Of a stretch of DNA of 30,311 bases, positions 3,253-29,663 are shown in pieces. The first letter of the stretch is position 1. Each line of letters starts with the position of its first letter. Source of the stretch: a virus; the IMG/VR virus record IMGVR_UViG_3300017708_002837, positions 1 to 30,311 of that record; one strand, 5' to 3'. Both the position numbers and the translations under genes were made by a program. The notes below the pieces were generated by a model. That model searched no databases and was not told the origin of the DNA. It saw only the letters and a list, made by a program, of their open reading frames with translations.

Positions 3253-6200
3253 ATGTCGCATTTTGAGAAGAAAGTGCAACTCAATAAAATTATTGAGAGC
3301 CAACTTCCAGAATTTTTAGTTGCCGACTTTCCTAAAGCGGTAGAGTTTTTCAAGCAATATTATATCTCTCAAGAGTCTCAGGGTAGTAATATTGATTTGA
3401 TTGATAATCTCGATAAGTATATCAAATTAGATAATCTTATTCCTGAAGTTATTGTTGGAACAGCAACTCTCTCGGTAAATATCAGTGCTTCAGATACCAC
3501 AATCATAGTATCTTCTACAAGAGGATATCCGGATGATTATGGTCTTTTAAAGATTGGTGATGAAATTATTACATATACTGGTAAGACAGATACTTCTTTT
3601 ACCGGATGTATCCGTGGTTTTAGTGGTGTAACTGGATTTGATGATACAACAAAATCATACTTTACAAATACTAACCGCCAAAGTGTAATTTTTGAAGATA
3701 CTGTTGCATCTAATCATAGTGCAAATGCAACTATTCAGAATCTTAGTGCTCTTTTCCTGCAAGAATTTTATAAAAAGTTAAAGAAAACATTTACTCCTGG
3801 ATTTGAAGAAGAGACTTTTGTATCTGATCTTAACGTCTCAAACTTCATTAAACACGCCAGAAACTTCTATCAGTCTAAAGGTATTGAAGAGTCTATAATC
3901 ATCCTCTTCAAGGTGCTCTACGGGGTCACTGCGAAGGTTATTGATCTTGAGAGTAGATTGATTAAATCTTCTTCTGCAGATTATGCTAGAAGAGAAGTTG
4001 TTGTTGTTGAAAGAATTTCCGGAGATCCTTTTGGTTTAGAAGGTCAAACTATTTTTAAATCAACTGATCTCAATACCAATGCATCAATATCTGAAGTAGA
4101 AATATTTACTAAAAATAATAGATCTTTTTATAAACTTGGACTGTTTGTTGGATATAATGATAGAGATCTTATAGAAGGTTTTTTTACAATACCTGGATTT
4201 TCTAGAGTTTTAGAGACAGTTTCTCCTGGAGATTCTGTTATTAGTGTAGATTCTACAATTGGATTTGATGAATCTGGTATTATCATTAGTGGAAATAATA
4301 CAATAACATACACTTCAAAGAGTGTTAATCAGTTTTTTGGATGTAGTGGTGTTGAAGATATAATTAACACTACAGATCCAATTAGATCAAATGAAACTGT
4401 ATTTGGATATGAAAATGGTGATGTAAGCAAAAAGTGTGAATTGCGTATTACTGGTGTTCTTTCTAGTTTTGAAGTACTTGAAGATAATCCCCTGATTGAA
4501 GTTGGTGAGAAAATTTTCGTAAAAAATATTGGTGATGTAATTAAAAATCCATCACAAAATAAAACAAATAAGGAAATATTTGCAAATTCTTGGATATACA
4601 ACACTAAAACAAGATTTGAAGTAGAAAGTATTTTTAATTCTTCTTTCTACTTGTATAGTGATGTTGATAAGGCAACTTTACGAATTGGAGACACTGTTGA
4701 TATCCTCATTGGCAGTAGTAATCAAGTAGCTCCAGGTGGATCTAATGCTCTTGTACAGTCAATTAGTACTCCACCAGTTTCTGTTGGAATAGCAGAAGTA
4801 ACTTTAGGAAATATTGGTTCTTTTCAACCAGTTCCATTTCAATCTTATAGTATTAGAAGGAATCTTATAAAAGGTAAGAGTTTAACAACTCCAATTAAAG
4901 AAGGTAATAATGTTTATATTGCCGATACTTTAAATGTTTATACTGATGATAATGAAGAATTTGGATATATTGCATCAAATTCTTTACCAGGATATGAAAT
5001 CTTAGATGAAATTATTGAATCATCTATATCAGATGGTCAGGAGTCTAATCTTGGTGGATATAGTGAAGAACTAAAGACTTGGAAATCTATTAAATTTGAT
5101 TCTTCCGTAAGATTTTTAAATGGTGATCGTGTAAAATATATTGCTGAAAATCAATTAGTTGGATTAGTTTCTGGACAGTATTATTATATTAAGATAATAA
5201 AATCAAACGAAATTCAATTATATTCATCTAAAACATTACTGAATACTAGTAGTGATGATCCAGTTAGATTTATACCTAATCAATTAGGAGGAACACATTC
5301 CTTCACTCTTGACAGACATGAGAATAAGCAATTATCTTCCAACAATATTCTTAGGAAAATTTCATTAAAAGAAAAAATTTCATCTAAAAATAAAGATGTA
5401 AGAACTATTGGTAGTGTTGGTATTCTTATTAATGGTGTTGAGATTAGTAGTCCAGATTCTAGAGATAGCATTTATTTTGGTCCTTTAGACAAATTTGAAG
5501 TTTTAAATAGTGGTATAGGTTATGATGTAATTAATCCACCAGAAATTGAAATTAGTAGTGGAACATCTACTGCTTTAGTTGAACCTATTATTGTAGGAAG
5601 TGTAAAAGAAGTTCTTGTAGATCCCCAAAGTTTTGATGTTAATGATGTTCTTTCAGTAACATTAACAGGAGGAAATGGTAGTGGATGTCAGTTAGAACCA
5701 GTCTTTGGTAAAAGATTTAGAGAAGTATCATTTGATAGTCGTGCTTTATCTCTTGGTGGTGGTATTGATATTACTAATGAAACTATTACTTTTCTTGACG
5801 ATCACAATTTTGTAAATGGACAATCCATTATTTACAATAATAATGGTAGTGATTCAATTTCTATAGGTGATGCTTTTGATCCAACAAATACCATTACAGG
5901 AACTTTAGGTAATAGTGATCAATATTTTGTTAAGGTTGTTAATCCATCAACTATTAAACTTCATATTAATGAAGGGGATGCTCTTGCAGGAATAAACACA
6001 ATTGGATTTTCTACTGCAACAAGTTCTTCAGGTATTCATAAGTTTACAACTCTTCCAAAAAATAATCTTAGAAAGATTGTAGTATTAAATCCTGGTTCTG
6101 GGTATACACATAGAAAACTAAGAGTCAAAACATCAGGAATTTCCACAGTTTACAATACTGTATCATTTAAAAATCATGGATTTGAGACGGGTGAGACTGT

Positions 6201-9200
6201 TAATTATTCAACTACTGGAACTAGTATTGTCGGACTTGATACTTCCAATCAATATCAAATTCAAAAAATTGATTCCGATTCTTTTAGACTGATTAATTTG
6301 GGTATTGGTAGTACAGTTACTGAAAATATTGTAAAAAATAAACATGTTAACTTTACAAATTCTGGTAGTGGATATCATATCTTTAATTATCCAGATATTG
6401 AAGTAACTGCTAATATTTTATTTGAGGGAACGACAGGAACATTTACATTTACTCCTTCAATTACTGGAGAAATTGTTGATACTTATCTCTATGAAACCGG
6501 TGCTGGTTATGGATCAACAACTATAAACCTTCATAAAAAACCTAATATTAGTGTTTCTAAAGGTAAAAATGGGCAACTTTCTCCCATTGTTAGTAATGGA
6601 AGAATTATTGAGGTACAAATTTTAAATGGTGGGAAAGATTATAAATCAACTCCAGAATTAGTTGTTGAAGACACTACAGGCACTGGAGCAATTCTTAGAC
6701 CAGTAATGGTTGATGGTAAAATTACTAATGTTATAGTAATTAATGAAGGTATTGGTTATAGTAGTAATGCAACAATTAAAGTAAAATCTAGAGGATTTGG
6801 TGCAAAGTTTGATACTAGAGTCAGAAAACTTCACATTAATGATGCAGAAAGATTCTCAAAATTTTCTAAAAATAAAAATGAGAAGATTTTTTCAAACTTA
6901 TACAAAAATAATAGAGAAGATTCACTTGTATATGGAATATTTGGATATTCCGAAGATTTAGCAAAAAATATTGAGTCTCTTGATGATCTTCATTCACCGA
7001 TCATTGGATGGGCATATGATGGAAATCCAATTTATGGTCCTTATGCATATTCTAATCCTAGTGATATTCAATCTGGTGTTGAAATTATCAAACCAAGTTA
7101 TGAATTAGCACCCTCTTCAGTTGAAGATAGACCAGATTTTGAGAATGGATTCTTTATTGAAGATTACAGATATAATGCAAGTGGTGATTTAGATGAGCAT
7201 AATGGTCGTTTTACAAAAACACCAGAATATCCAAATGGTGTTTATGCATACTTTGTTGGTGTTACAAAAGAAACTACATCTTCAACTCCTGAAGCATTTG
7301 AACCAAAATATCCATATTTTATTGGAAATACATATCAATCAAAATTTATTGAAGATAATCTAATATTAGATCATAAATTTGATTTTAATAATTCAAATCT
7401 CTCTAGAAATACTTTCCCATATAATATTAATCGTTTGAGAGAAGATTATGATTTTATTAATGAAAGTTATCAGCAGACTGAACAAATAAATTTTGTAAAG
7501 TCTGTATCTCAAGGATCTATAGATAAAATTAATATTGTTGATGGTGGTATTGGATATAAAATTGGAGATAGGGTCAATTTTGAAGATGAAGATGCTAGTG
7601 GTACAGGACTAAGAGCACAAGTATCTGAATTGGTTGGTGCTGCAATTACTTCTCTTGATACAACACTTGAAAGTTACGAAAATGTTGTATTTGAGTGGGA
7701 TAATGATAGTCAAGTATCTGCTTATAATATTTCAGGATTTGAAATTCTCAATAATGATACTGTTGCTATTTCTGATTTATCTACATCAGTAGATGCTCTT
7801 GCAGATTCGTTTACCGTTGAATTTAGTACTCAAACTGTTGCTCTTGCAGCAACAATGAGTTCAAATAATTTTACTCCTTATGGTAAATATGAAGATATCT
7901 TCATTTCCAAAAAACTTAACAATGTATCAATTGGAAACTCAATTAGAATTGTTTCGGATTTAGGAAGTGAAATTGTAACTGTATTGAATACGTTTGATAA
8001 TGATGTTATAAGAGTTAAGAGACATGGTAGTGCAGGTGCTGCACATAGTTTGAGTAGTAGACTTGAACTTCTTAATGATCGTGTAGTTCTTCCGGTAAAA
8101 ACTAAACAGTTTGAATCTACGAGAGATGATTTAGTATATTTTAATGGGCACCAGTCAATTGGTCTTGGAACAACACCTGGAGGAGCACTTGAAACTACAT
8201 TCTTAGTTGGGAATACAAATGTAACTGCAAATATTCCCTTTAGACAGATTCGCCTACCAAATCACCCATTTAAAACTGGTCAAAAAGTAATACTTGAGAA
8301 ATCTTCAAATCCTGCAGTAGATCAAATTATTGTTGGTAACGATGAAAGTGGTGCAGGTACCTTCTTTGTTCCACAAGTGATATCAGAACTTTATGTAATT
8401 GATAAAGGTAAAGATTATATTGGTCTTACAACACAAGTTGGTCTTACCACTGCAGGAAATGGTCTATTTTTCTATAATAATGGTAGTGATAATTCAGAAT
8501 ACAAATTATCTTCAGATTTTACACAACTGACTGGTGATCTTAATAAAATTACTACCAAAATTAGTTGTGGTGCTACTCATGGGTTGAAAGTTGGCGACAC
8601 AGTTAATTTAACTGTTAATCCTAACACCATAGTTGGTCTTGGAACAACATCGGCATGTAGAGCAGCATTTGATATTGATAATCAACTCCTATTAATCAAT
8701 CGTGTTGATATTGATTCATCTGCATTTAATACTAATAATAACAGTATTACATTTAATGATCACGAATATAAGACTGGTGATAAGTTATTATATGAATCTA
8801 ATAATGTAGCAACAGGTCTTATTTCAGGACAATCTTACTATGTTATAAAAGATAGTTCCAATACTTTCAGACTTGCAGAAACTTTATATGAAACCAATTC
8901 CTCAACAGAAAAATCTATTAATATTACTGGAACTGGAACTGGTACACATAAATTATCATTAATTAATCCACAAATTGATGTCACAAGAAATAGTGATCTT
9001 CAGATTAAATTAGAAGATTCTTCACTTACTGGATATGAATTAAGAATCTATAGAGAAAATGAATTTATTAATGAGTATAATTCATCTTCTGATACTTTAG
9101 ATTTCAACGTTGTTAGAGTTGGTACTCCAGGAAATAGTGGTGCATCACTTACAATTAAATATTCTGATAATATTGTATCAGAACTCTTCTATACTCTTGA

Positions 9201-12200
9201 AAAGGGTGGATATATTAGTACTGCTGATAGGGATGTAACTAATTTCTCAAAGATAAACTATGTTAATAGTGAATATATTGGAACATATGATGTATTTGGA
9301 ATTGAATCTACAACTTTTAATATCTCACCATTAAAATTACCAAAAGTTTTAAATTACACATCTAATCAATGTGACTCTTTAGAATATACAATATCATCTT
9401 CCAATGATATTACTGGTTCAATATCAAAAGTAGATATTATTTCTAAAGGATTTAATTATCAGAAACTTCCAAAATTTAAAGATGTTACTAGCGTAAATGG
9501 AACCAATGCAAATTTAGGAGCAATCTCATCTTCTATTGGAAGGATTAATAAAGTAAAATTTAGTAATATTGGATATGATTATCCATCAGACAAAACACTA
9601 AGACCAGAAGCAGATATTGCATCAACATTTAATATTGATAATTTAGATACAATTACTGGATTTAGTATTGTAAATCCAGGTGATAAGTATATTAGTGATC
9701 CAGATCTTTTACTTTGGAATGATACTAGTAATAAAATTGTAGATTCATCATCTTTAAAGACAGATGCTTCAAATGGATCTATTTCCACAATTGAGCAGAT
9801 AGCACCTATATTTGGTTTAGAATCAGAACCACATAGAGTTATTGCAATTAACAACTCTAATGGTATTGGTATTAATAACATTACTACCGACAATTCTGGA
9901 ACAGCTGTTTGTACATTAAAAACTCCGTTACTTACAGGATTCATAACACCACCATTTGCAGGAGGAGATCTTGTATTTGTTGAAGGCATTGAGATGTCTG
10001 ATGATGGTGATGGATATAACTCTTCTGATTATAACTATCAGTTCTTTAAAGTTATCTCATATTCTAATACAAATCCAGCAACATTAACATTCCAAATTGC
10101 TGGTAATGATGGTATTGGATTTTCTACAAATCCAGGAATTGCTAAAACCAATCAATCTGGATATGCAAATATTATTAATAGCAAAGAATATCCAGATATT
10201 AAAGTTATTCAGGATAGAGGCACCTTCACTATCAATGAACCACTTCTTGTAGATGCAAATACTGGGTATGTAAGTACAGATCTTACAGTTGCTTCAGTAA
10301 GAGATGATTTTCTAAAAATAAATGGAAGATTTGACTTAGAAAAAGGTTATAAAATCAAAGGTGTTATTAGTGGATGTATTGCCGACATAACTAACGTTGA
10401 TAGAAAGAGAGCAAAATTTAATATTAATTATTCATCTAAATTGAATATTGGGTGGAGAAATGATATTGGTAAAATTAGTGAAGATTATCAAGTCATTCCA
10501 GATAATGATTATTATCAAAACCTTTCATACTCTATCAAGAGTCCAATCACTTGGAATGAATTTTTATCACCAGTAAACAGCATACTTCATCCAGCAGGTC
10601 TTAAGAACTTTGCTGATGTTGGAATTTCTTCTACTGCAAATGTATCAGCATCTGCTGAAGGATCAACAATAGCAATTACCACTCTTGATATTAATTCTGA
10701 GAAGAGGGTAGATGCTATAAATCTGTTTGATAATAGTATTGATGATAATCCTAAAGAAAGTTTAATAGGAAATTTCTTACAATCTAACTCTTTACAAGTT
10801 CAGAATAGAAAGTTAGCAGACTATATTGAATGTAAAACCAACAGGGTTTTAATACATGATGATATTAGTGGCGAGTTCTCAAGCAGTGGATTTAAAGATA
10901 TATTTAAAGAAATTGAAGAGATTGATACTCTTGATGATCATGTAAGATATTTAATTCAAATTATTGATCCAGATACTGGAAATATTCAAATTACCGAATT
11001 AGTATTACAGTCTACCAATCTTAACGCATATCTGTTCACAAAGTATAATACTTTTAGTGAAAAATTACTTGGAACTTTTCGTGCAGATGTTGATACTTTT
11101 AGTAGAAAAACATTAATATTTGATCCAGTTGATCCATATAATACTGATCATGATATTAAGATTCTAAAGAAGACATACTTATATCAAGATTTGCCTGTAG
11201 ATATTACTGGAATTGGAACGGAAAATTTTGGATCTATTAATCTTACAAGTACATTTACATCTGGAATCGGTAGTGTTGGAACTGCTACAAGCACAAAAAC
11301 TATTGCAGAGTTCAATGTAAATGATTTTAATGGTGCATTTGCTACTATTGAAATTAGAGATAGATTTGGACTAAATGTAAATTATATTGAAGCATCTATT
11401 GACTTTGATGGAACGGATACTTATTTAAATGAATATTATTTTGATTCTGAAAATATTTCATATAGTTATATTCAAACTGGTATTCTTGATGTTGAATATG
11501 ATTCAAACTCTGGGATAGTCTCTTTAACTGCATCTAACAATGAAACTTCTACTGATGTATATGATGTTCGTTCTAGTATTGTTGGATTTGGAACTACAAC
11601 ATCTGGTATTGGAACATATCGTTTCCTTGTTAGCGGACAACCAGAAGGATCTGAAAATAGTGCAAGATTAGAATCTACTTTAGGTGAGGGATCAGGTACT
11701 GTAAGATTGGGCACATTTAATATTGATGAGATTGCATCATCATCTTCTATTGTTCGTGTTTCTGCAGGACAAACCTCTTCAATTCATCAGGTTACAATTA
11801 TTGCTAATGATATTGAATCAGAGGTTTATGTTACTCCTGGTCCATTCTCAGCAGTTAATAATACATCTGGTCTTGGAACATTTGGTGGAGAAATTAATGG
11901 TAATGATTTCTACTTAAATTTCTATCCAGATTCTGGATATAGTGTTAAGACACAATCATTTAATGAGGTTCTTTACAGATTTAGTGATTTTGATAATGAA
12001 CCACAATCTTTAGAATTTGGACCATCAGAACAAAATCTTTTCTTAACTAGCTTTGATGGTCTAAATGGTGTAAGAGCAAATAGAGTTAATTTTAAATTAA
12101 GTCATGAAAATTTTCCAATTTATACTAAGATATTCAATCCTGGGGATACGTCTAATATAGATTATGAAACAGGATTATTTAAATATACTAATCATTTCTT

Positions 12201-15200
12201 TAATACTGGAGAAGAACTGATTTATGAACCAAAATCAACATTTACTGGTGTTGGTCAAAGTGCAATGGGTATTGGTTCTACAGAAAATTATCTTGGAATT
12301 GTAACTGATAGACTTCCGGAAAGAGTTTATCCAATTGCTGTTACACCAGATAGTTTTAAACTGGCAACCAAAAAAGAATATGCTACAGCAGGTATTTTTG
12401 TAACATTTACTGATGCTGGTGAGGGAAATGCTCATGAATTAGAATTTACTAAAAAACTTTCCAAAACAGTTATTGCTCTTGATGGTATAATTCAGCAACC
12501 AATTACATTTACACCTATTAGTCATAGCCTTAGTTTTAACAATGGTTCAATTAGTGCTGGTATTGCTACGTTCAATCTCAGTGGTATTTCATCAATTCAA
12601 CCAAGAGATCTTATTAGAATTGATGATGAATACATGAAGGTTGTTGAGGTTGGTCTTAGTACTAACTTTAATGGTGAAATTCTTGGTCCAATTAATGGTA
12701 TCATTTCTGCTGGAATTGCTGCAACACATCCAACGGTTTCTGTTAAGAGGGGTGTTGTTGGTTCTACCGCTACATCACATATTGATAATGCGAATGTACA
12801 AGTATATCGTGGATCATTTGATATTGTTAAGAATGAAATATTCTTTATAGATCCACCAAAAGGAAATACTAGATCACAAAGAAATGAATCAAATTTACCA
12901 TATGTAAAATCAGAATTTAATGGAAGAACATTCCTGAGATCTGATTATAATTCAAACTTTATTTTTGACGATATTTCTGATCAATTTACTGGAATTGGTA
13001 AAACTTTTACATTAACTGTTGGAGGTGCTAATACTTCAGGCATCCAACCTGGTGATGGTATATTATTCATTAATGGTGTTTTCCAAACCCCAACTACTGA
13101 AAATAATGAAGGAAATAATTATGAAATTGAAAGTGACATTAGTTCGGGAATAAGTACTGTAATTTTTACAGGCATTACTTCAGAAAATGGTTCTAATATT
13201 GAGTCTACATTTGATATCAATCAAAACCAAATTCCAAGAGGTGGTTTAGTTGTTTCCTTAGGTTCTACATCTGGACTTGGATATGCGCCTCTTGTTGGTG
13301 CAAAAGTCAAAGCGAAAAAGAATTCTTCTGGAGCACTTACCGAAATCGTTGGCATCAATACTTGGACTAATCCAGTTTCTATCAGCACTGCTTACTACAA
13401 TAAGTTCTCGGGTATTATTCAGATTGAGACTTCAGATTCTCATAATTTGAAAGATGGTGATAGAGTGAAGTTATTAGGATTACAATTCACGTCTACTCCT
13501 ACATATAGCGGAACTTTCCCAGATCCTGATAGATCATTTGATATTATCAATATTGTTAGTGCAACTGAATTAAATGTAAATGTTGGCACAAGCGATATTA
13601 CTCACGATTATGATGGTCAAGGTGAGATTTATGAGCATTTCTCTCTAAATGTTGGTTCTGGTTATAGAGAACCAGTTTCAATTGCGGTAACCGATCTTGC
13701 CTATGAGCATAGATTTGAAAGAGCAGTAACTAATGCTGTTTCTAGTCAGTTTACACCAACTGCAGCAAAGTATACTTCACATACAGGTGTTCTCCAATTA
13801 ACTATATCAAATCACGGTCTTACTACTTCCGACACCATAACGATTGCTGATAATTCTCTAATCTTTAGATGTTCTGATGATAATTTCTTCACTGAACAAT
13901 CATATCCAAGATCTACTGATCCAGCATCTGGATCTAATTTAACAATCACTTCAGTTACTACTAATACAATTACGGTAAATGTTGGACCTGGTGGTGGTGC
14001 AGGAACAGGTGCTGTAGTTGAAGCAACTGTGGGTGCAGGAGGAACACTTACGTTTAATGTTACAAGTCCTGGAAGTGGATATATTAATCCCGTTATTCAG
14101 ATTCCAGAACCAGTTTATGAAAATATGCCTGTTGTGGGTGTTTCTAGACTTGGGGTTGGTCCTACAACTGAAACTGGTAGAAATCTTTTGCTTAATTTGA
14201 CGGTTGGTGCTGCATCAACAACTGTTGGTATTGGTTCAACACTTTTCCTCATTGACTCTTATAAAATTGTTAGAAATGGATATGCATTCCAACCTGGTGA
14301 TGTTTTGGAAGTAGTTGGTCTTGTAACCGCTAAAGATTACAATCAACCTATTGCACCATTCCAACTTGAAGTTGTACGAACATTTAATGATTTCTTCTCT
14401 GCTTGGACTTTTGGTGAAATGGATTTCATTGATAATATTGCAGTCTATCAAAATGGAACTAGAAAGAGATTCCCATTATTTTACAACGGAGAACTCTTGA
14501 GTTTTGAAATTGATAAGAATAATCCACTTTCTTCTAAAATTAATTTAGATGCAGTTCTTATTATTTTTGTTAATGGTGTTCTTCAAAAACCTGGATATGC
14601 CTATGAATTTATTGGTGGTACATCATTTATCTTTACAGAAGCACCAGATACAGAAGATGATGTAGATATTTTCTTCTATCTTGGTCAAGATGGTATTGAT
14701 GTTAACCTAGTGAATGTTACAGAGACCCTTAAAGTTGGTGATGATGTATCTGTCAATAAGCATCCATTATATCAACAAACTGTTGATCAATTATTATCAA
14801 GAACCATAATTGAAATTACTGGAGCAGATACTATTGAAACTCCAATTTACAAAGGTCCTGGTATAAATCAAAATATATTCAAACCATTTGATTGGATAAA
14901 ACAAAAACGGGACAAATATGTAAATAGTACAATTATTTACAAGACAAGAAGCAGTCTTGAACCAAGAATTTTCCCAACATCCAAAATTATTGGTGATATA
15001 ACTCCATCCTCTACAGAAATTTTTGTAGATAATGCTCAGTTCTTTGATTATGAAGATGATTATTATGGATTAACCATAATTGATTTTGATGGAATCATTA
15101 TTGATCATAATGAACCAGTTCCTGCAAATCTTTCTCCAGTTGTTAGTGCTGCAGGATCTGTTACGTCCATCAATATAGTTGATGGTGGTAATGGATATAC

Positions 15201-16260: not shown

Positions 16261-16265
16261 TTTCC

Positions 16266-16273
16266 TATAAATA
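16266..16273 (+). promoter_or_regulatory. T4-type late promoter TATAAATA before gp8
   Basis: A perfect TATAAATA box occupies the 29-base gap after the gp7-slot gene, five bases past its stop and 16 bases before the gp8 ATG. An independent promoter here would keep gp8 and downstream expression from depending on a 13-kb upstream transcript. The leader is short and AT-rich without a clear Shine-Dalgarno sequence. Confidence 0.8.
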
Positions 16274-16289
16274 TATAAAAAAAGATAAA

Positions 16290-17858: not shown

Positions 17859-17861
17859 AAA

Positions 17862-20800
17862 ATGCCACAGAAGACTAATCTCAATGTAAATCCTTATTAC
17901 GATGACTTCAATAAGGATAAAAATTTTTATAAAGTTTTGTTCAAACCTGGATATCCTGTTCAGGCGAGAGAATTAACTGGTCTTCAGTCAGTTTTACAGA
18001 ACCAAATAGAATCCTTTGGCAGTCATATGTTCAAAGAGGGTTCTATGGTGATTCCTGGTGGAATCACTTGTGATAATCAATTTACTACAGTTAAAGTTAA
18101 TACTACTAATTTAGGTATTGACGTAACAGTGTATTTGGATTCTATCACTTCCGGTAAAGGAACTTTAGTCAAAGGTACAACTTCTGAGGTTGTAGGCACA
18201 ATTAAAGGTTATCTTCTCCCCCCAGACTTAGGTGTAGAAGAAATCACTCTATTTGTTAAGTACCTTGATGGTTCTAGTGATGGAGAATCTCTAGTATTTT
18301 ATGATGGGGAAGTATTACAATTAGAAGAAAACGTTGCCTATGGTAATACAACACTCGTAGCAGGAGATTCTGTATTCACCCTAGTAAATAACAATTCAAC
18401 CGCCACAGGGTACGCTGTAGGTGTTGCAGAGGGCGTTTATTTTATTAGAGGAACATTTGTTGATGTTCAAAGTTCTCAAATTGTTCTAGATCCTTATGAT
18501 AATGAACCATCATTTAGAGTTGGATTTGATATTCTAGAAGAAATTGTAAATGCTGATGAAGACTCAAGTCTTAATGATAATGCAAAAGGATTTACAAACT
18601 ATGCTGCACCAGGTGCAGATAGATTTAAAATTAGTTTAAATTTAGCAAAAAAACAACTTACTGATTTTGAAGATACTAACTTTGTAGAGTTAGTTAAAAT
18701 TGATAATGGAGAAATTAAGAGATTACAAGATAAATCAAATTATAATCTGATTAGAGATTATTTTGCTAAAAGGACTTTTGATGAGTCTGGTGACTATTCT
18801 ATTGATAGTTTTATTGTAGAAACATCAGAATCTCTCAATGATGAAGTAGGAAATGGTGGTCTGTTTAGATCTGACGAATTAACTGAAGAGGGAAATACAC
18901 CCACAGAAGATTTGATGTCAGTCAAAGTTTCTGCCGGAACTGCTTACGTTAGAGGATATGATGTTGACCTAGAGGGTTCAACAGTACTTGATGTTGAAAA
19001 ACCAAGAACTACAAAAACAGTTCCTACTTCTCAAATTCCATTTGAAGCAGGAAGTCTTCTGAGAGTTAATAATGTAGCGGGTGTTCCATATATTAATATT
19101 GGTGATACTTCTAGTGCTAATACCACCAATTCCAATATTATTGAACTCTATAAGGAAAGAAGAAATAATACAGATGTTAATAGTATTACAGATCAAAATA
19201 CTGCTGGTCTCACTACCAAAATTGGCGAAGCAAGAGTTTATTCGTTTGGTGTAACTGATGATAGTTACAAAGGAAATGCTACTGAATGGGATTTATATCT
19301 CTATGATATTCAAACATTCATTGAACTGACTCTTAGCAATACATATAATCAAACAGATGTTCCATTAACTTCACTTGTTAGAGGTCTTTCTAGTGGTGCA
19401 ACTGGATATCTTGCAGAGTCAACTAGTAATACTTACAAGTTAAATCAAACTTCTGGTGAATTTTTAGTTGGTGAGCAAGTAATCATCAATGAAGAGGTTA
19501 AATTCCAGACAGGTATTCAGAGTATTACTGTATATACTACAGATGATATCAAAGCAGTATTCCAGGATGCTGATGGTTTAAATAGTAGTCTTCAAACAAA
19601 CTTTATTGCAAATACAGTTCTTCATGAAGTAGGACTACCAAACTTTGCTAAAACTGATTTACTAAACATTACTGGTACAACTGGAAAAGTTAGTGGAAGA
19701 TTTTTCAGTGGTGTAACTGGAATTAAAGAAGGAAGAACTATTAAATATCAGACTGGTGGTACTGATCCAGTTTATGTTGATATTAGTGGTATTGCTGGAG
19801 ACGGAACAAATATCACTCTAGCAGACCCCGATACTGCTGTTACAGGTGTTTATTCTAACACCTCTGCTGATGGAAACTATACATTCTCAATGATGGTTCC
19901 AAGAATCATTAACACTGGTTCTACAGGTTTATATTCTGCACTTCCTGTTCAAAATATTGCATCAGTTGATTTATCTGGGGCACAGTTAATAATTACCAAA
20001 CAAATTAATGGTAAGTCTGTTGTTGCTAATAGTATGCAGATTACTGTTGCAGATGCAATTGATGCTTCGGCAGGAATTACTAGTGTATTTTATGAAGCAT
20101 TTGATGCTGAGAGATATTCAATCCACTATTCTGATGGAAGTATAGAATCATTATCCTCTGGTATGGTCACCTTAGGTTCTGGTGGATCAAGTGTTACATT
20201 TAATGGATTGAGCAAAACAACAGATTCAAATGTAACTGTAATTGCAACTCTTTCTAAGAGATCTATTACTAATAAGTCTAAAGATTTTATTAGAAGTCAG
20301 AAGTTAGATATAACTAGAACACAAAAAACTAAGACCCTTAACGGTCTTACAGATAGTAAGTATTATGGAACTAGAATTGAAGATAATGAAATATCTTTGA
20401 ACGTTCCTGACGTTGTAAATATTCGTGCAGTTTATGAGTCTACAGATTCAAATGCACCTATTCTTGATAAATTAACCTTTGTTAGTGGATTATCTTTAGA
20501 TCAAAATGTAGTTATTGGTGAAAAAATTACTGGTCAAGATGGTAGAGCAGTTGGTCAAGTAGTCAGTGCAACAGCAACTGAAGTTTTCTATGTTCCTAGA
20601 AATAGCAATAACTTTATTGTGGGTGAAAGTGTTAAATTTAGTGATTCCTCTTTAAATCTGGAACTTCAACAATCAACTAAAGGTAGTTACGTTGATTTAA
20701 CTGAAAATTATAGATTAGATGATGGTAGTAGAAATGAATATTGTGACTATTCTAGAATTGTAAGAAGAGATGGTTCTCCAACTCCAGATAAGCGTTTACT

Positions 20801-23800
20801 TATTATTTTTGATAAGTATGATATTGCTTCTGGTAATAGTGGAGATGTATTTACTTGCAGTTCATATGGTGCAGGTAGATACAAGAGTGATATTCCATCT
20901 CTTCCAAATGGTCTTCGTGTCAGTGATTTAATTGACTTTAGACCAAGGGTTAAACCATTTGATTTAACAACCACATCTTCACCATTTGCATTTAATAGTA
21001 GGCAGTATGAATCCACCTTTAGATATGTAATTACTCCAGGTGAAACTTCATTCTTTGGATATAGTTATTATCTTCCAAGAGTTGATCTTATCAGCATAAA
21101 TCGTTTTGGTGAGGTAGAAGTTATCAAAGGTGAACCTTCTGATAGTCCACAGTCTCCTGTTCTTGCAGATGATGCAATGGAGATTGCTCAAATCTCTCTT
21201 CCACCATATCTGTATAATACTACTAAAGAACCGAAAATTCTTCTGAGAGATAATAGAAGATTTACCATGAGGGATATTGGTGTTCTTGAAGATAGGATTG
21301 AAAATCTTGAAGAGGTTACTAGCCTTTCAATGCTAGAACTTAATGCAAAAACCCTCTCTGTGACTGATGCTAATGGTTTAGATAGATTTAAGAGTGGATT
21401 TATTGTTACTGATTTTAAAGATAAATCACTTGCTGATCCTCGGCATAGTACTATTGATATTGATAGAGAAAATGCAGCTGCAATAGCACCTATTGATTTT
21501 TGGAGTATAAATGCAGAACTTGCTTTAGATCCAGGTATTGATTTACTTACAACAAGTAATACTTCTAATCAAAAATTATTAGATCAATCTATCCAAAAAA
21601 CTGGTGATATGCTAACTTTAGCATATACTGAAGTTGAATGGTTAAATCAACCACATGCAACTAATGTTGAAAATGTTAACCCATTTAGTGTTATTGCTTT
21701 CCAAGGTGGTGTATTATTAGATCCTAGTTCTGATAATTGGACAAGAACTATCTATGTTAATGACCATAGAGCAGAGTCAACTGGTGCTAAATGGAAACAG
21801 ATAGCAAAAACCACTACAAATGTAGATACCACTAGTGAAATTAAGACTTATAAAAAAGGTGGTGGTAGAGGTGAAAAACGAAAGAAAACAGTCTATACTA
21901 CAACAACTACAAAGAAAACAAATTATACAGCAAAACTTACAGGACCTTCCAGAGAGTTTGATTATGTTGAAAATGTAAAAATATCCAGTGAAGTTGATCC
22001 TTGGATGCGCTCCAGAAATGTTTATTTTAATTCTAACGGTTTAAAACCATATATAAAGCATTATCTGTATCTTGATAGCCAACAAGTCGATATTGTACCA
22101 AAACTTTGTGCAATCCAGATGAAATCTGGTACATTTACAGTGTTTGAAGATGCTGATATTTTAGATTCAAACAACAATAAGGTTGGATTTATTAAAATTC
22201 AAAGACCAAATCATAAATTTGGTGATAAATCTAGACCAGATATTGGTGCCGGATTAGCGTCTCCTTCTGTTCTGGTAGAAAACTATCAAAGTAATCCATA
22301 TGATAGAAATAAACCTGTTCCAGGAGAATCTTATTCTCCTACATCCGAATTAATTAATTTTGGTGTTAGATCTTTAGCAACTAGACAAAAATATTATGGA
22401 TATGTTGAAAAAGGATTTAAAATTGTAGGAAAAGAAAGTGGTGCAATTGCAACAATTACTAGAGCAGAATTAATTTCTGATAATTGGGGCGATATTGTTG
22501 CCAGTTTCTTCTTTAGAGATGCAAATAGCACACCAAAACCTGCTACTTTAGTTAAGAGTGGTACTAAAACTGTTAAAGTTACTGCAATTCCACCAAATAC
22601 AGTTACTGTTCCTGGATCAACTGTATTTGAATCTCAAGGACTTGGAACTTATGAGGGTTCGGGAACCGTTATTACTCAAAATACCAGTACAGTTTCTGTT
22701 AGAAATCCACCCAAACCAAAAGCAAAGAAAACTAAAATTGATATTACAGTTAAAACAAAGGCAGTACATAGGGATCCATTAGCACAGTCATTTACTGTTG
22801 ATAGTACTGGCGCATTCTTAACTGGATTTGATTTATATTTTGCATCTAAAGATCCTAATTCTAAAGTTTTTGTCGAACTTAGAACTATGGAACTTGGAAC
22901 TCCAACTCAGTTCTTAGTGCAAGATTATACTCAAGTTGCTTTAAATCCAAAAGATGTTAATGTCAATGAAAACAATCCATTTGAACCTATAGCAACAAAT
23001 ATAAAATTCTCATCACCAGTATTTTTGGAGGCAGAGAAAGAGTATGCAATTGTTGTACTTGCTCCTTCATCCGATAAGTATGAGTTGTGGACTGCAACTA
23101 TGGGTCAAAAGGCAATTTCACCAACACTCCTCCCAGATGTTCAAGATGTAGTTGTTACCAAACAGTATATTGGTGGATCATTATTTAAATCTCAAAACGG
23201 TACTATATGGACACCAAGTCAGTTCCAAGATCTTAAATTTACATTATATAAAGCAAAGTTTGCAAAATCTGGAACTTTAACTTGGTATAATACAGATATT
23301 ACTCCAAAAGGAGATAATAATGCAAGATTAATTACCAATCCTATTGAAAGTCTTCCTAGGAAACTCATGTTACCTATAACTGGAACACTTAATAGTTCAG
23401 TTGAACTTGGTACTAAAGTTATTCAGGGAGCAACTGGGAACACTATAAATGGATTTATTGAAAACTTTGGTGCTGCTGCAGCAGGTATTGGGATTGTTGG
23501 TGGTGGTTCTGGATATAAAGCATCACAAAATAGTGTAACTGGTGTTGGACTTTATTCAATTACTGGAAAAGGAACCGGTGGTATTGTAACAATTAATACT
23601 GATGCGGATGGTAAAGTTTCCAATGTAACTTTAACTACAAATGGTTCTGGGTATGTTGATGGAGAAATAGTTGGAATTGTAACTTCAGATATCGCAACTC
23701 CAGTTGGAACTGGTGCTAAGTTTACTATTAATTCTATCAGCGCGTCAACAGATACTCTGTATCTGACTGATGTTCAAGGCGAAAACTTCACTAATACTTC

Positions 23801-25250
23801 AAATATCTATTTCTTCAATTCCTCTTCAGTAAGAACAGATTCTAATACAACTGCTTCTGCAGAGTCTACATTAATTTCATCTGAATATTCTGGAAATGTA
23901 TTCAGAATTAAGCAGTACACTCATGCTCATCATGGTGGAAACAATAAGATTGAAATTGTTGATGTTCTTCCAGATACTACAATAACACAAACTACATCTG
24001 AATTTGGTCTAACTTCAACTCAAGTTTCTGTTGCGAATACATTACCATTTGGAAGTTTTGAAGGTATTAGTACTTCTAGAGGTTACGCTCTGTTAGGTGG
24101 AGAAATTGTCTCTTATAATGGAATTAATGCAACATCTTCTCCTGCAGGTACATTAACAATTGATGCTCGTGCAATTAGTGGATCATCTAAAATTATTCAC
24201 GAGTCTAATAGCAATATTCAACCATATGAGGTTAACGGTGTATCTTTAACTAGAATTAATACCATACATGATATTCCATCAACATATTATAACACTATGA
24301 ATTCAAATGTTGATTCATATCATCTTGAATTTGATAGAACTATACTTGCACCTATAGACAGAAGTTCTGGTGATGGTAGGGTCAACTTTACTTCTCAAAA
24401 AGGATTTGGTGGAAATACTGTTGGAATTTCCAAAAACTACCAGTTTAGTTCTGTTGAACCATTATTTAACTTTATCACTCCCGGTAAAGGTACTAAAATA
24501 ACTTCTAATATTAGAACAATTACAGGTACTAGTGCAGGAGGTAATGAAACATCATTTATAGATCAAGGATATGAAGCAGCTACTCTTAATAAAGTAATTA
24601 AATTTGATACTCCAAGAATGGTTGCTTCTGAGATCAATGAAAATACATATCTCACAACAATGCCTGGAAATAAATCTCTTACACTAAGAGTTGATTTTGA
24701 AACTGAAAATGAAAATCTATCACCAATGATGGATGTTCAAAATGCATCGTTTATTCTTGGTAGAAATAAGGTAAATAATCCAATTTCGGATTATACATCT
24801 GATCCTAGAAGTAATAACTATGATAATGATCCTCACGGTTCAGTATTTGTTACTAAAACTGTAGGTCTTCAGCAACCAGCAACAAGTTTGAAAGTTATTA
24901 TCGCTGCTCATAGGCAGGAAGATGCTGATTTTAGAGTTTTCTATAAATTAGATAAGGTAGATTCTAGTGGAGTTGATCAAAAATTTGTTCCATTCCCAGG
25001 ATATAATAATTTACTTGATACTGATGGTGATGGATTTGGAGATCAAGTAATTGATCTTAATAAAAATAATGGAAGAGCAGATGCTTATGTTGCACCTAAT
25101 GAAAATAGTGAGGATTCATACTCTGAGTATCAGTTCTCTATTGATAATGTAGATCAATTTAATGGTTTTGCAATTAAAATTGTTATGTCGTCAACAAATG
25201 AATCAAAACCAGTTAAATTGAAAGATTTCAGAGCACTCGCACTTGCCTAA
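17862..25250 (+). CDS. Giant DUF4815-type tail/baseplate structural protein (2462 aa)
   Basis: The N-terminus (NVNPYYDDFNKDKNFYKVLF, then PGYPVQARELTGLQ, QNQIESFGSHMFKEGSMVIPG) is the typical start of the DUF4815 family, found in marine phage virion proteins. Later landmarks are two lysine-rich segments (about 1328-1357 and 1619-1636), DPLAQSFTVDSTGAFLTG from residue 1638 onward, two GxGY repeats (GGGSGY ending at 1885, NGSGY ending at 1931), and a DTDGDGFGD calcium-loop-like motif (2386-2394). The end, NGFAIKIVMSSTNESKPV..LKDFRALALA, is also typical of the family. There are no membrane segments. It occupies the place of T4 gp9-gp12, so an outer baseplate, tail-pin or fibre-anchoring role is likely but unproven. 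It starts four bases after gp8, and its stop lies at the start of the next small gene (TAATATG). Confidence 0.85.
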   Translation: MPQKTNLNVNPYYDDFNKDKNFYKVLFKPGYPVQARELTGLQSVLQNQIESFGSHMFKEGSMVIPGGITCDNQFTTVKVNTTNLGIDVTVYLDSITSGKGTLVKGTTSEVVGTIKGYLLPPDLGVEEITLFVKYLDGSSDGESLVFYDGEVLQLEENVAYGNTTLVAGDSVFTLVNNNSTATGYAVGVAEGVYFIRGTFVDVQSSQIVLDPYDNEPSFRVGFDILEEIVNADEDSSLNDNAKGFTNYAAPGADRFKISLNLAKKQLTDFEDTNFVELVKIDNGEIKRLQDKSNYNLIRDYFAKRTFDESGDYSIDSFIVETSESLNDEVGNGGLFRSDELTEEGNTPTEDLMSVKVSAGTAYVRGYDVDLEGSTVLDVEKPRTTKTVPTSQIPFEAGSLLRVNNVAGVPYINIGDTSSANTTNSNIIELYKERRNNTDVNSITDQNTAGLTTKIGEARVYSFGVTDDSYKGNATEWDLYLYDIQTFIELTLSNTYNQTDVPLTSLVRGLSSGATGYLAESTSNTYKLNQTSGEFLVGEQVIINEEVKFQTGIQSITVYTTDDIKAVFQDADGLNSSLQTNFIANTVLHEVGLPNFAKTDLLNITGTTGKVSGRFFSGVTGIKEGRTIKYQTGGTDPVYVDISGIAGDGTNITLADPDTAVTGVYSNTSADGNYTFSMMVPRIINTGSTGLYSALPVQNIASVDLSGAQLIITKQINGKSVVANSMQITVADAIDASAGITSVFYEAFDAERYSIHYSDGSIESLSSGMVTLGSGGSSVTFNGLSKTTDSNVTVIATLSKRSITNKSKDFIRSQKLDITRTQKTKTLNGLTDSKYYGTRIEDNEISLNVPDVVNIRAVYESTDSNAPILDKLTFVSGLSLDQNVVIGEKITGQDGRAVGQVVSATATEVFYVPRNSNNFIVGESVKFSDSSLNLELQQSTKGSYVDLTENYRLDDGSRNEYCDYSRIVRRDGSPTPDKRLLIIFDKYDIASGNSGDVFTCSSYGAGRYKSDIPSLPNGLRVSDLIDFRPRVKPFDLTTTSSPFAFNSRQYESTFRYVITPGETSFFGYSYYLPRVDLISINRFGEVEVIKGEPSDSPQSPVLADDAMEIAQISLPPYLYNTTKEPKILLRDNRRFTMRDIGVLEDRIENLEEVTSLSMLELNAKTLSVTDANGLDRFKSGFIVTDFKDKSLADPRHSTIDIDRENAAAIAPIDFWSINAELALDPGIDLLTTSNTSNQKLLDQSIQKTGDMLTLAYTEVEWLNQPHATNVENVNPFSVIAFQGGVLLDPSSDNWTRTIYVNDHRAESTGAKWKQIAKTTTNVDTTSEIKTYKKGGGRGEKRKKTVYTTTTTKKTNYTAKLTGPSREFDYVENVKISSEVDPWMRSRNVYFNSNGLKPYIKHYLYLDSQQVDIVPKLCAIQMKSGTFTVFEDADILDSNNNKVGFIKIQRPNHKFGDKSRPDIGAGLASPSVLVENYQSNPYDRNKPVPGESYSPTSELINFGVRSLATRQKYYGYVEKGFKIVGKESGAIATITRAELISDNWGDIVASFFFRDANSTPKPATLVKSGTKTVKVTAIPPNTVTVPGSTVFESQGLGTYEGSGTVITQNTSTVSVRNPPKPKAKKTKIDITVKTKAVHRDPLAQSFTVDSTGAFLTGFDLYFASKDPNSKVFVELRTMELGTPTQFLVQDYTQVALNPKDVNVNENNPFEPIATNIKFSSPVFLEAEKEYAIVVLAPSSDKYELWTATMGQKAISPTLLPDVQDVVVTKQYIGGSLFKSQNGTIWTPSQFQDLKFTLYKAKFAKSGTLTWYNTDITPKGDNNARLITNPIESLPRKLMLPITGTLNSSVELGTKVIQGATGNTINGFIENFGAAAAGIGIVGGGSGYKASQNSVTGVGLYSITGKGTGGIVTINTDADGKVSNVTLTTNGSGYVDGEIVGIVTSDIATPVGTGAKFTINSISASTDTLYLTDVQGENFTNTSNIYFFNSSSVRTDSNTTASAESTLISSEYSGNVFRIKQYTHAHHGGNNKIEIVDVLPDTTITQTTSEFGLTSTQVSVANTLPFGSFEGISTSRGYALLGGEIVSYNGINATSSPAGTLTIDARAISGSSKIIHESNSNIQPYEVNGVSLTRINTIHDIPSTYYNTMNSNVDSYHLEFDRTILAPIDRSSGDGRVNFTSQKGFGGNTVGISKNYQFSSVEPLFNFITPGKGTKITSNIRTITGTSAGGNETSFIDQGYEAATLNKVIKFDTPRMVASEINENTYLTTMPGNKSLTLRVDFETENENLSPMMDVQNASFILGRNKVNNPISDYTSDPRSNNYDNDPHGSVFVTKTVGLQQPATSLKVIIAAHRQEDADFRVFYKLDKVDSSGVDQKFVPFPGYNNLLDTDGDGFGDQVIDLNKNNGRADAYVAPNENSEDSYSEYQFSIDNVDQFNGFAIKIVMSSTNESKPVKLKDFRALALA
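23463..23680 (+). repeat. GxGY repeat pair in the DUF4815 protein (residues about 1868-1940)
   Basis: IVGGGSGYKAS (GxGY at 1882-1885) and TTNGSGYVDGEIV (1928-1931) are joined by a KGTGGIVTINTDADGKVSN-like linker. The linker has the same GTGG...V..DGKV.N layout as the linker between the two gp8 repeats. This makes a shared module origin more likely than chance composition. Confidence 0.75.
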
Positions 25251-25251
25251 T

Positions 25252-25633: not shown

Positions 25634-25636
25634 ATA
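25629..25636 (+). promoter_or_regulatory. T4-type late promoter TATAAATA overlapping a stop codon
   Basis: The perfect box contains the TAA stop of the 59-aa gene (25631-25633) and lies 28 bases before the ATG at 25665. It would start a transcript covering the 75-aa gene, the 542-aa fibre-like gene, the 61-aa gene, gp13 and gp14. Confidence 0.8.
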
Positions 25637-25664
25637 GTTTTTAGATTCCTGATAATCATCGTAA

Positions 25665-25892
25665 ATGGCTGATATTAAAGTCAGGGTAGGTCAACAACCT
25701 GCAGTAAAAGTAATATCTTCGCTTGCTGGTGCCCAAGGACTTTCTTTGGCTGAACTTAATGATGTTTCTGCAACCAATTTGCAGAATGGAATGGTTCTGG
25801 TATACAACAGTTCCATTCAAAAGTGGGAAGCAACGCTAGAACTTACACCAGGTGCAACTCAGAATTTAGACATCAACGGGGGAAACTTCTAA
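25665..25892 (+). CDS. Small fibre-associated structural protein (75 aa)
   Basis: The protein begins MADIKVRVGQQPAVKVISSL. It then has LSLAELNDVSA (about 27-37) and LQNGMVLVYNSSIQKWEA (about 39-56), a short form of the 'L.dL.DV....NGqvLvYn....kW' repeat that is common in phage tail-fibre and adhesin proteins. It ends INGGNF, directly at the start of the next gene, whose ATG follows the stop without a gap. This close coupling and the shared fibre-type motif suggest that it works with the 542-aa protein, perhaps as a cap, adaptor or attachment unit. That is inference; I know of no assigned name. Confidence 0.75.
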   Translation: MADIKVRVGQQPAVKVISSLAGAQGLSLAELNDVSATNLQNGMVLVYNSSIQKWEATLELTPGATQNLDINGGNF

Positions 25893-27521: not shown

Positions 27522-27527
27522 TATTAA

Positions 27528-27713
27528 ATGGAAAATCAATCTGAAGTGGACGTGAATGTCCTAATTAAAATTTATAATTCTAAATTAGCAACAGTATCAA
27601 ATCAAAACGTTCTTCTTGAGGCAAAGTTAGCAACTCTATCTCAAGATTATAAAGAACAACTTGATGCTTTACTAGAAGAAAACGCGGATCTTAAGGCACA
27701 ATTAGAAGATTAA
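27528..27713 (+). CDS. Small coiled-coil protein upstream of gp13 (61 aa)
   Basis: The 61-aa product (MENQSEVDVNVLIKIYNSKL...) is almost entirely a heptad-type helix. Leucines, valines and isoleucines are spaced for a coiled coil from about residue 10 to the end (LLEAKLATL, LDALLEENADLKAQLED). It is acidic and has no membrane segment. It lies six bases after the 542-aa fibre-like gene and is linked to gp13 by TAATATG, so it should be made in step with both. It might be an oligomerisation or assembly factor for the fibre or neck, comparable in shape to the coiled coil of the T4 whisker, but there is no recognisable sequence relation. Function unknown. Confidence 0.75.
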   Translation: MENQSEVDVNVLIKIYNSKLATVSNQNVLLEAKLATLSQDYKEQLDALLEENADLKAQLED

Positions 27714-27714
27714 T

Positions 27715-28545
27715 ATGGCAAAACCATCATCTAGACAAGGACTCATAGACTATTGTTTACGTCAACTTGGTGCTCCAATCCTTGAGATTAATGTGGACGA
27801 CGATCAAATTGATGATCTAGTTGATGATGCCATTCAATATTTTAATGAGCGCCATTTTGATGGTGTTGAAAAAATGTATCTTAAGTACAAAATCACTGAA
27901 GATGATGTAACTAGAGGTACAGCAAAAGGAACTACTGGTACAGGAATTGTACAAACAACTGCTACTGATACTTCCAATAGAACATATAATTTTTATGAAA
28001 CTGAAAACTATATTCAAGTTCCAGAATCTGTAATTGGAATTGAAAAGATTTTTAAATTTGATTCTAGTTCCATTTCTGGTGGGATGTTCAGTATCAAATA
28101 TCAACTGTTCTTGAATGATCTTTATTATTTCAATTCAGTTGAACTTCTTCATTATGCAATGACTAAAAGTTATCTTGAAGATATTGACTTCTTATTGACT
28201 CCAGATAAGCAAATAAGATTTAATAAAAGACAAGACAGATTATATCTAGATATTGATTGGGGTTCTCAACCTGCAGGGGAATTTATTATACTTGAATGTT
28301 ATAGAGCATTGGATCCTGCAGCATTCACTCAAATTTTTAACGATAGTTTCATGAAACTATATCTTACCGCTCTCATTAAGAGACAGTGGGGAAGAAATCT
28401 TAGTAAGTTCAAAGGAGTTAAACTTCCTGGTGGTCTTGAACTTAATGGAGGAGAAATTCTTCAACAAGCAGAATCAGAATTAGCAGATATCAGATCAAGA
28501 ATGATGACTGAGTTCGAATTACCTCCCCTAGATTTTATCGGATAA
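27715..28545 (+). CDS. 13: Neck protein gp13
   Basis: The protein has 276 aa (T4 gp13 has 309). Its N-terminus is typical of the family: SRQGLIDYCLRQLGAPILEI, then DDDQIDDLVDDAIQYFNERHFDG (about 18-46). The central part includes IGIEKIFKF and LNDLYYFNS, and the C-terminal part LKLYLTALIKRQWGRNLSKF-like sequence followed by LPGGLELNGGEIL. In T4, gp13 and gp14 form the neck that completes filled heads and lets the tail attach. The start is coupled to the upstream small gene (TAATATG), and the stop overlaps the gp14 ATG by one base (TAATG). This is the usual arrangement for proteins that act as one complex. Confidence 0.93.
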   Translation: MAKPSSRQGLIDYCLRQLGAPILEINVDDDQIDDLVDDAIQYFNERHFDGVEKMYLKYKITEDDVTRGTAKGTTGTGIVQTTATDTSNRTYNFYETENYIQVPESVIGIEKIFKFDSSSISGGMFSIKYQLFLNDLYYFNSVELLHYAMTKSYLEDIDFLLTPDKQIRFNKRQDRLYLDIDWGSQPAGEFIILECYRALDPAAFTQIFNDSFMKLYLTALIKRQWGRNLSKFKGVKLPGGLELNGGEILQQAESELADIRSRMMTEFELPPLDFIG

Positions 28546-29663
28546 TGGCTCTTAATCCTTTCTTTTTACAAGGTACTGCAGGTGAGCAGAGACTAGTTCA
28601 AAATCTAGTCAATGAGCACTTAAGATTTAATGGTGTAGAAGTAATTTATATTCCAAGAAAATATGTAAATACAAAAACTATTATTGAAGAAGTTCAATCA
28701 TCTAAGTTTGATGATAATTATTCAATTGAAGCATATGTAAATAATTTTGATGGTTATTCTGGTGCTGGTGATATACTCACAAAGTTTGGTGTAAGCGTAA
28801 GAGATGAACTTTTACTTACAATCTCCAGAGAAAGATTTGAAGAATTTATTTCTCCATTTTTAGCGTCAGAAGATGATGGGACTGGAACTGGTGAAGTTAT
28901 TTTATCAACAAGACCAAGAGAAGGAGATATAATATACTTTCCATTAGGTGAACGTTTATTTGAAGTTAAATTTGTTGAGCATGAAGATCCATTTTATCAG
29001 TTAGGTAAAAATTACGTATATCAACTTAAGTGTGAACTGTTTGAGTATGAGAATGAAGTATTTGATACTTCTCTTGATATTTTAGACACTCAAGTTCAGG
29101 ATGAAGGTTTCATCACAACACTTAACTTGGTTGGTACTGGAAGAACTGCATCTGCTATTGCACAGATTCAAGGAACAGTTCCCAGTGGATATATTGATAA
29201 AATTTTCCTTAATAATGATGGATATGGATATACATCAGTACCATCAATTAATATTACACAATCACCTACTAATCAGATTGGTGACCATGCTAAAGCAGTT
29301 GGTATATTGACTACTGTAGGTGGGGTTACTTCTATAAAAGAAATTTTACTCACAAATGCTGGTGCAGGATATACAGTTGCACCAATAATCACTATTACAG
29401 GTGGCGGAGGAGCAGGTGCTGCTGCAACATGTTCAATTAGAACAACTGGTCTTGGTGTTATGAGAATTGTTGTTACTGATGGTGGTGTTGGTTATAGTAC
29501 TGCACCAACAGTAACAATTGATGCACCTCCAATCACTTCACAACCTATTGATGTTAATATAGTTACAACCGTTGATGATAATTTTTCCTATAATGTTTCT
29601 GAAAGATTTGATTCGGAAATCACAACATTTGATGGAGAATTGACCTTTGATAAGAATTCATAA
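28545..29663 (+). CDS. 14: Neck protein gp14 with an inserted GxGY repeat region
   Basis: Residues 1-180 carry the gp14 pattern: NPFFLQGTAGEQRLVQNLVN, VEVIYIPRKYVN, IEAYVNNFDGYSGAGDILTKFG, RERFEEFI, RPREGDIIYFPLGERLFEVKF and YQLKCELFEYENE. T4 gp14 has 256 aa; this one has 372. The extra length lies in residues about 195-330, which hold three GxGY units (226-229, 273-276, 314-317, with PSINI, PIITI and PTVTI after each), the same repeat family as in the gp7-slot protein, gp8 and the DUF4815 protein. After them a short tail resumes (DNFSYNVSERFDSE...). The gene overlaps gp13 by one base. Its stop lies inside the late promoter of the next gene. Confidence 0.92.
   Translation: MALNPFFLQGTAGEQRLVQNLVNEHLRFNGVEVIYIPRKYVNTKTIIEEVQSSKFDDNYSIEAYVNNFDGYSGAGDILTKFGVSVRDELLLTISRERFEEFISPFLASEDDGTGTGEVILSTRPREGDIIYFPLGERLFEVKFVEHEDPFYQLGKNYVYQLKCELFEYENEVFDTSLDILDTQVQDEGFITTLNLVGTGRTASAIAQIQGTVPSGYIDKIFLNNDGYGYTSVPSINITQSPTNQIGDHAKAVGILTTVGGVTSIKEILLTNAGAGYTVAPIITITGGGGAGAAATCSIRTTGLGVMRIVVTDGGVGYSTAPTVTIDAPPITSQPIDVNIVTTVDDNFSYNVSERFDSEITTFDGELTFDKNS
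29200..29540 (+). repeat. Three GxGY repeats inserted in gp14 (residues about 219-332)
   Basis: The repeats read NDGYGYTSVPSINI, NAGAGYTVAPIITI and DGGVGYSTAPTVTI, spaced 47 and 41 residues apart, with GGGGAGAAA between the second and third. These are the most regular copies of the family in the window and show its consensus best: (N/D)(A/G)GxGYxxxPx(I/V)xI. Confidence 0.85.

Follow-up and report, generated by a model that had tools for sequence, protein, structure and literature searches.

A GxGY beta repeat shared by baseplate and neck proteins in a T4-like cyanophage contig, and a gp14 that appears split and chimeric

The virus contig analysed here (IMG/VR record IMGVR_UViG_3300017708_002837, positions 1 to 30,311; hereafter the window, 30,311 bases in all) covers the genes of a T4-like cyanophage from the baseplate to the neck, in which one small repeat, the GxGY unit, recurs in the giant protein at the gp7 position, in gp8, in a DUF4815 protein and in the head-closure (neck) protein gp14. 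We propose, with a probability of roughly 0.77, that this is a portable extracellular-type beta unit that has been taken up by phage virion genes, multiplied in tandem and recombined, and that in the clade of the window gp14 has been split and made chimeric. The features of the window that bear on gp14 are the following.

28545..29663, plus strand: gp14-N, the front part of a split gp14, 372 residues (PF11649, E 1.3e-32; gene order in relatives)
29139..29258, plus strand: gp14 unit 1, residues 199-238 (33.4 bits)
29313..29402, plus strand: gp14 unit 2, residues 257-286 (25.5 bits)
29409..29528, plus strand: gp14 unit 3, residues 289-328, the point at which the intact gene is interrupted (36.2 bits; alignment with intact gp14s)
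29529..29660, plus strand: foreign 44-residue C-terminal tail of gp14-N, in place of unit 4 and the conserved gp14 C-domain (alignment with intact relatives)
29660..29666, plus strand: ATAAATA between gp14-N and the inserted block (late-promoter-like element)
29687..30311, plus strand: first gene of the inserted block, a gp9/10-N-like fibre protein that leaves the window, 208 residues visible (translation; its relative at locus L001 matches PF07880 T4_gp9_10_N, E 8.6e-6)

The unit is about 40 residues long (38-47), has three strands and follows the pattern GTGAxAxAxV-xxxIxxIxVTNxGxGYxxxPxVxI, successive units being spaced mostly 38-48 residues apart. A sequence-only reading of this contig had described a unit running from GxGY to PxVxI with a GTGA-type turn downstream; the real unit is longer and starts at the GTGAxA strand before GxGY. 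A profile trained solely on gp14 repeats of relatives, with the window left out, recovers all three gp14 units of the window (41-52 bits) and five units of the gp7-slot protein (8-16 bits), and no match of 8 bits or more came from the reversed proteins or from shuffled ones (200 shuffles per protein). The single units of the DUF4815 protein (5.9 bits) and gp8 (3.3-3.6 bits) were not separable from background with this profile. When whole segments were compared profile against profile, gp14 was joined to gp7 (E 2e-7), to gp8 (E 1e-5) and to DUF4815 (E 1.7e-5), and gp8 to DUF4815 (hhalign, E 1e-9), while all nine control regions stayed below 2% probability. The presence of the motif in all four proteins, at the places where it had first been noticed, is confirmed, and these comparisons show the copies to be homologous.

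Units were counted with an iterated profile of 38 positions, seeded with gp14 and then trained on all loci including the window, at a cut-off of E < 0.05 with Z = 1000; on shuffled background it gave no match at E < 0.01 in 2.1 million residues, the background maximum being 8.8 bits, and in all, thousands of shuffled proteins yielded nothing comparable. It finds three units in gp14 and two in gp8, the same numbers as in the sequence-only reading, one in the DUF4815 protein and seven in gp7, with a few further degenerate gp7 copies. The figure of at least a dozen units given earlier for gp7 can be upheld (about 12) only when degenerate copies are included, and the second copy claimed for DUF4815, a GSGY at residue 1882, falls below the single-unit threshold, the other (1904-1940) being retained. 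A three-sequence profile built from the window gp14 alone was too narrow and returned only gp7 and gp8 fragments at background level. GHGY at gp8 308 and GDGY at gp8 171 are not units; like GDGY in gp6, they match the short motif by chance. Scanned against Pfam and NCBIfam, the unit is covered by no model. There was no Pfam match to Ig-like, Big or fn3 domains in the repeat segments of the four proteins, nor to the BACON carbohydrate-binding domain in the window proteins scanned, and literature searches limited to open-licence papers turned up no description of the motif or of a split gp14.

The array comes and goes in gp14. The core domain of the T4 gp14 family (PF11649) covers residues 3-173 of the window protein, and the units lie, as had been supposed, inside the segment that makes it longer than T4 gp14 (372 versus 256 residues; intact relatives have about 480). 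Both T4 gp14 and T4 gp8 (PF09215; 1n7z, 5hx2) have core domains clearly homologous to those of the window and no units, whereas their cyanophage counterparts carry arrays in loops or C-terminal segments. Besides T4, unit-free gp14 occurs in S-PM2 and S-RIM44 (292 residues), S-CREM1 (302), MbCM1 (308) and S-CRM01 (351); syn9 and ACG-2014e have two units, most P-SSM2-type phages four and S-CAM9 eight. In P-SSM2-type gp14 the array is placed before the conserved GxGTFxxNExVxGxxSGxxARVKSW domain, and in syn9-type gp14 it breaks that C-domain between GEEIVGD and RAEVKSW; with two insertion points there were therefore at least two insertion events. The gp14 core of ACG-2014e is 72-73% identical to the unit-free proteins of S-PM2 and S-RIM44 and 38-41% identical to the syn9 group, but its array, the 30-residue upstream flank and part of the downstream flank are nearest the syn9 group, and the C-terminus reverts to S-PM2/S-RIM44. 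This mosaic has a Fisher p of 7e-13 to 9e-10, counted on informative flank sites only with the array excluded, and ACG-2014e gp14 is a recombinant, a syn9-type array in an S-PM2-type protein. For the extra units of enlarged gp14 arrays (L053, L065, L078, L080, L022, S-CAM9) an origin in gp7 is not claimed, the units being nearer gp7 in DNA and the protein scores split. A unit is also found in gp13 of S-CRM01, in an insertion of about 100 residues, and S-CAM9 gp13 has a different insertion there; this one loop (L166 gp13, 30337-31458, and L173 gp13, 32612-33757, in S-CAM9 and S-CRM01) thus holds unrelated insertions, of which only that of S-CRM01 has the GxGY unit.

The window gp14 ends after unit 3 with a 44-residue tail not found in intact relatives, and the C-terminal domain conserved in cyanophage gp14 (..DFTESNPFG) is not on it, so that it is not a single complete gp14 chain. 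In about 17 related contigs, which differ in sequence identity, a three-gene block lies between gp14 repeats 3 and 4, the order being gp13, gp14-N, a gp9/10-N-like fibre protein (243-252 residues), a subtilisin-family protease (PF00082, E 5.8e-25 in L067), an open reading frame (ORF) of 734-1194 residues, gp14-C (226-237 residues) and gp15; at least nine of these contigs run from gp13 or gp14-N through to gp15. Besides the window (28545-30311), split gp14 was located at L189, L190, L193-L196, L198-L200, L066 and L067. The rear half, gp14-C, carries the conserved C-domain of gp14 together with its last unit, and the two halves align to P-SSM2 gp14 at 1-334 and 256-470. Start codon to start codon, the first 80 or so residues of gp14-C, a stretch with two units, align with the N-termini encoded by syn9 gp103 (E 1.7e-23) and by a 702-residue gene of S-CREM1 (E 8e-19). 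In S-CREM1, tail-pin and peptidase genes directly precede the 702-residue gene, upstream of gp8 and after the giant protein. The tail-pin-like and protease genes of this block and of syn9 gp101-gp103, with the N-terminus of the 702-residue protein or gp103, match the contents of the split gp14; both phages, however, have an intact gp14 and carry the block between gp6 and gp8, and syn9 has no protease there. We therefore regard gp14-C as a gp14/baseplate-gene chimera joined at repeats, which speaks directly for exchange between genes. Read most simply, a baseplate-region stretch moved into gp14 and its downstream end was joined at the repeats, the upstream end being less certain.

We consider it very improbable that the split of gp14 reflects gene decay or faulty assembly of the contigs. 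Every split example comes from a metagenome contig, and when 50,697 phage records were searched, no isolate with a chimeric rear half was present among the best 30 of 435 listed; yet contigs of differing identity share one gene order, several of them as far as gp15, and both halves are open and conserved. The four relatives' contigs that were searched whole, which may be incomplete, contained no intact gp14, just both halves. In addition, a promoter-like element stands before each downstream gene. ATAAATA, which we take to be the T4-type late-promoter core, is present within 60 nucleotides upstream of the gene that opens the block at 14 of 18 loci and before gp14-C at 12 of 12, with 0.017 expected per 60 nucleotides, some of these loci being overlapping stretches of one contig and thus not all independent.

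These observations can be put together as follows. Virion genes would acquire the unit at tolerant surface loops, the units would multiply in tandem, and recombination would exchange them among virion genes, probably as homeologous exchange at repeats where the units belong to different genes. In the clade of the window, a three-gene block splits gp14 between unit 3 and unit 4, and the rear half starts with the first 80 or so residues (two units) of another baseplate gene. Because the rear half begins with the start of that gene, each gp14 half has stayed an open gene, with a late-promoter-like ATAAATA at each junction, and the two halves may still assemble into a neck. A bolder extension, which we offer tentatively and would not yet bet on, is that the units are generic in-frame recombination joints, at which exchange between units of different genes would transplant whole blocks into an essential neck gene (in this clade the genes for a tail-pin-like fibre and a subtilisin-like protease, with a large ORF), gp14 then being a two-piece protein.

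The remaining copies of the unit, with the genes that carry them, are the following.

3253..16260, plus strand: gp7-slot giant baseplate wedge protein, 4335 residues (ORF; phrog_2885 baseplate wedge subunit, E 0; YHYH PF14240, E 3.4e-26)
5485..5559, plus strand: gp7 unit, residues 745-769 (iterated profile, E 0.0098)
6562..6666, plus strand: gp7 unit, residues 1104-1138, in tandem with the next (30.3 bits)
6679..6783, plus strand: gp7 unit, residues 1143-1177 (31.1 bits)
7501..7557, plus strand: gp7 unit, residues 1417-1435, past the YHYH domain (12.7 bits)
9400..9708, plus strand: gp7 residues 2050-2152, with three degenerate units (each 7.0-7.6 bits, close to the 8.8 bits that shuffled background reached at most)
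14002..14112, plus strand: gp7 unit, residues 3584-3620 (24.4 bits)
15124..15234, plus strand: gp7 unit, residues 3958-3994 (22.8 bits)
15511..15615, plus strand: gp7 unit, residues 4087-4121 (25.5 bits)
16290..17858, plus strand: gp8 baseplate wedge protein, 522 residues (PF09215, E 1.1e-14)
16947..17126, plus strand: pair of gp8 units at residues 220-240 and 252-279, inserted with respect to T4 gp8 (10.6 and 16.7 bits; T4 alignment)
17862..25250, plus strand: DUF4815 virion protein, 2462 residues (PF16075, E 6.5e-55)
23442..23681, plus strand: DUF4815 repeat segment, the sub-threshold GSGY at residue 1882 and the unit at 1904-1940 (unit 11.0 bits; against the gp8 segment, hhalign E 1e-9)

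In gp7 the YHYH domain is embedded at residues 1228-1340 (nucleotides 6934-7272) with repeat units on both sides, and the counterpart of the degenerate 2050-2152 region holds two units in S-SRM01, ACG-2014f and S-CAM7. At six other loci (L115, L121, L134, L137, L143 and L151) neighbouring gp7 units are identical in 27 of 27 bases, pointing to a recent duplication in tandem or to gene conversion. The window gp8 belongs to the T4 gp8 family by both PF09215 and fold (Foldseek, 1n7z, E 2.6e-8), and its units lie inside the segment by which its 522 residues exceed the 334 of T4, again as the sequence-only reading had it. This segment occupies one position in all cyanophage gp8s compared, being degenerate in S-PM2 and ACG-2014e and absent from T4; the gp8 copy is an old insertion, fixed in cyanophages. 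The DUF4815 units also stand at a similar, fixed position across cyanophages. By eye only, a possible second small module, GExVxGxxSGxxAxV..W.....L.V...G.F..GE, can be seen in the gp14 C-domain (for example L161 gp14 from residue 371), in the window gp8 at about 380-415 and in DUF4815.

Several results weigh against the proposed exchange or against parts of it. The nearest neighbour of 818 of 836 units (98%) is the same gene in another phage, and DNA matches between genes of one genome are short, the best only 23-57 nucleotides, by which very recent within-genome transfer between genes was rejected. A profile search for the source of the 44-residue gp14-N tail was not significant; its C-terminal motif, which was chosen after the tails had been seen, matches one of 4551 ORFs, the S-CREM1 giant baseplate protein, so that an origin of the tail in a giant baseplate protein is suggestive only. 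The AlphaFold2 model of gp14 is poor outside the repeats, with a mean predicted local distance difference test score (pLDDT) of 48. Because the units are so largely closest to the same gene and the same-genome matches so short, spread between genes appears to have been mostly old or rare, the chimera being a clear later example. Of the earlier proposal that a small domain spreads by recombination, the part resting on empty gp14 sites, two insertion points, the ACG-2014e recombinant and the gp14/baseplate chimera stands, while recent free flow among the four genes of one genome is not supported, given the same-gene neighbours and the fixed positions in gp8 and DUF4815.

These fixed positions and same-gene neighbours are what would be expected had the unit been acquired only once, long ago, and then been inherited vertically and lost repeatedly, with no spread between genes since the ancestor of the cyanophages. 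Universal presence at identical positions, which the sequence-only reading had named beforehand as speaking against spread, was found for gp8 and was not found for gp14. For gp14 an account of this kind is already contradicted by the two insertion points, the ACG-2014e mosaic and the gp14-C chimera, to which the S-CRM01 gp13 unit can be added, and as a whole we consider it unlikely.

The unit is not restricted to the four window proteins or to phages, but is widespread in bacteria and archaea. A search with one genome per species gave at least 80 loci in Verrucomicrobia, Bacteroidota, Planctomycetes, Acidobacteria, Actinomycetota, archaea and others, and the cyanophage-trained profile finds units, often many in tandem, in 76 of 80 listed loci, an agreement that is partly built in by a query near the profile consensus. 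The host proteins carry the same unit but differ from those of the window in being large secreted-type proteins and enzymes, not virions. Multicopper oxidase and GH64 glucanase domains have units at their sides or within them, in long arrays at the bacterial loci L226, L254 and L228. Among phages the nearest parallels are Ig-like domains and BACON tandem repeats, likewise small beta domains that occur in tandem and are shuffled among virion proteins (PMC10684548, PMC6949934). The GxGY unit differs from them in having no sequence or Pfam match to either, in being shorter (about 40 residues), in residing in neck and baseplate proteins and not mainly in fibres, and in having no curated family.

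As to function, AlphaFold2 models show about three strands per unit, with pLDDT of about 70-90 over gp14 210-300 and about 81-92 over gp8 220-290; searches of the PDB by sequence and by fold matched only the T4-type gp14 and gp8 cores and not the repeats, the gp14 model being poor overall. Our best guess is that the arrays may form a spacer or weak-contact surface projecting from neck and baseplate, and have no part in catalysis. Glycan binding by the arrays is so far unsupported. That they might be glycan-binding or adhesion surfaces, comparable to the Ig-like or BACON domains of phages and selected for attachment to cell surfaces, would fit the secreted and surface contexts of the bacterial relatives (GH64 with dockerin, a PATR autotransporter repeat, multicopper oxidase), the domain exchange described for phage neck passage proteins, some with carbohydrate-binding domains (Smug et al., PMC10684548), and the tail association of BACON repeats (PMC6949934). 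We nevertheless find this doubtful, as neither sequence nor fold matches any carbohydrate-binding family and the conserved residues G, Y and P look structural. Assembly or packing elements that lengthen or brace neck and baseplate contacts, the unit in gp7, gp8, gp14 and DUF4815 packing against itself, seem a questionable alternative too. Every host is a baseplate or neck protein, and in gp8 and DUF4815 the copies are as fixed among cyanophages as a load-bearing contact would be; however, viable phages have anything between 0 and 8 or more copies in gp14, which is hard to square with a fixed contact, and in T4 gp14 lies in the neck and gp8 in the baseplate, not adjacent to each other.

The genes of the window run in the order gp25, gp6, the gp7-slot protein, gp8, the DUF4815 protein, a 542-residue ORF, gp13, gp14 and the start of the fibre-like gene, and its closest named relatives are P-SSM2, S-SRM01 and one single-cell marine virus, at about 75% DNA identity and over gp13-gp14 only.

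In summary, these results give a testable handle on how the giant modular virion proteins of common ocean cyanophages are built. A single small beta unit, for which the databases have no family, is found again and again in genes of the neck and baseplate, is present in some gp14s and absent from others, and stands at the joint of a gene-to-gene fusion. They also carry a warning for annotation, in that short gp14 genes like that of the window are halves whose other half may bear the label of an unrelated protein. If the repeats are indeed the joints, this would account for the splitting and lengthening of structural genes in frame, with gp14 lengths from about 290 to 850 residues.

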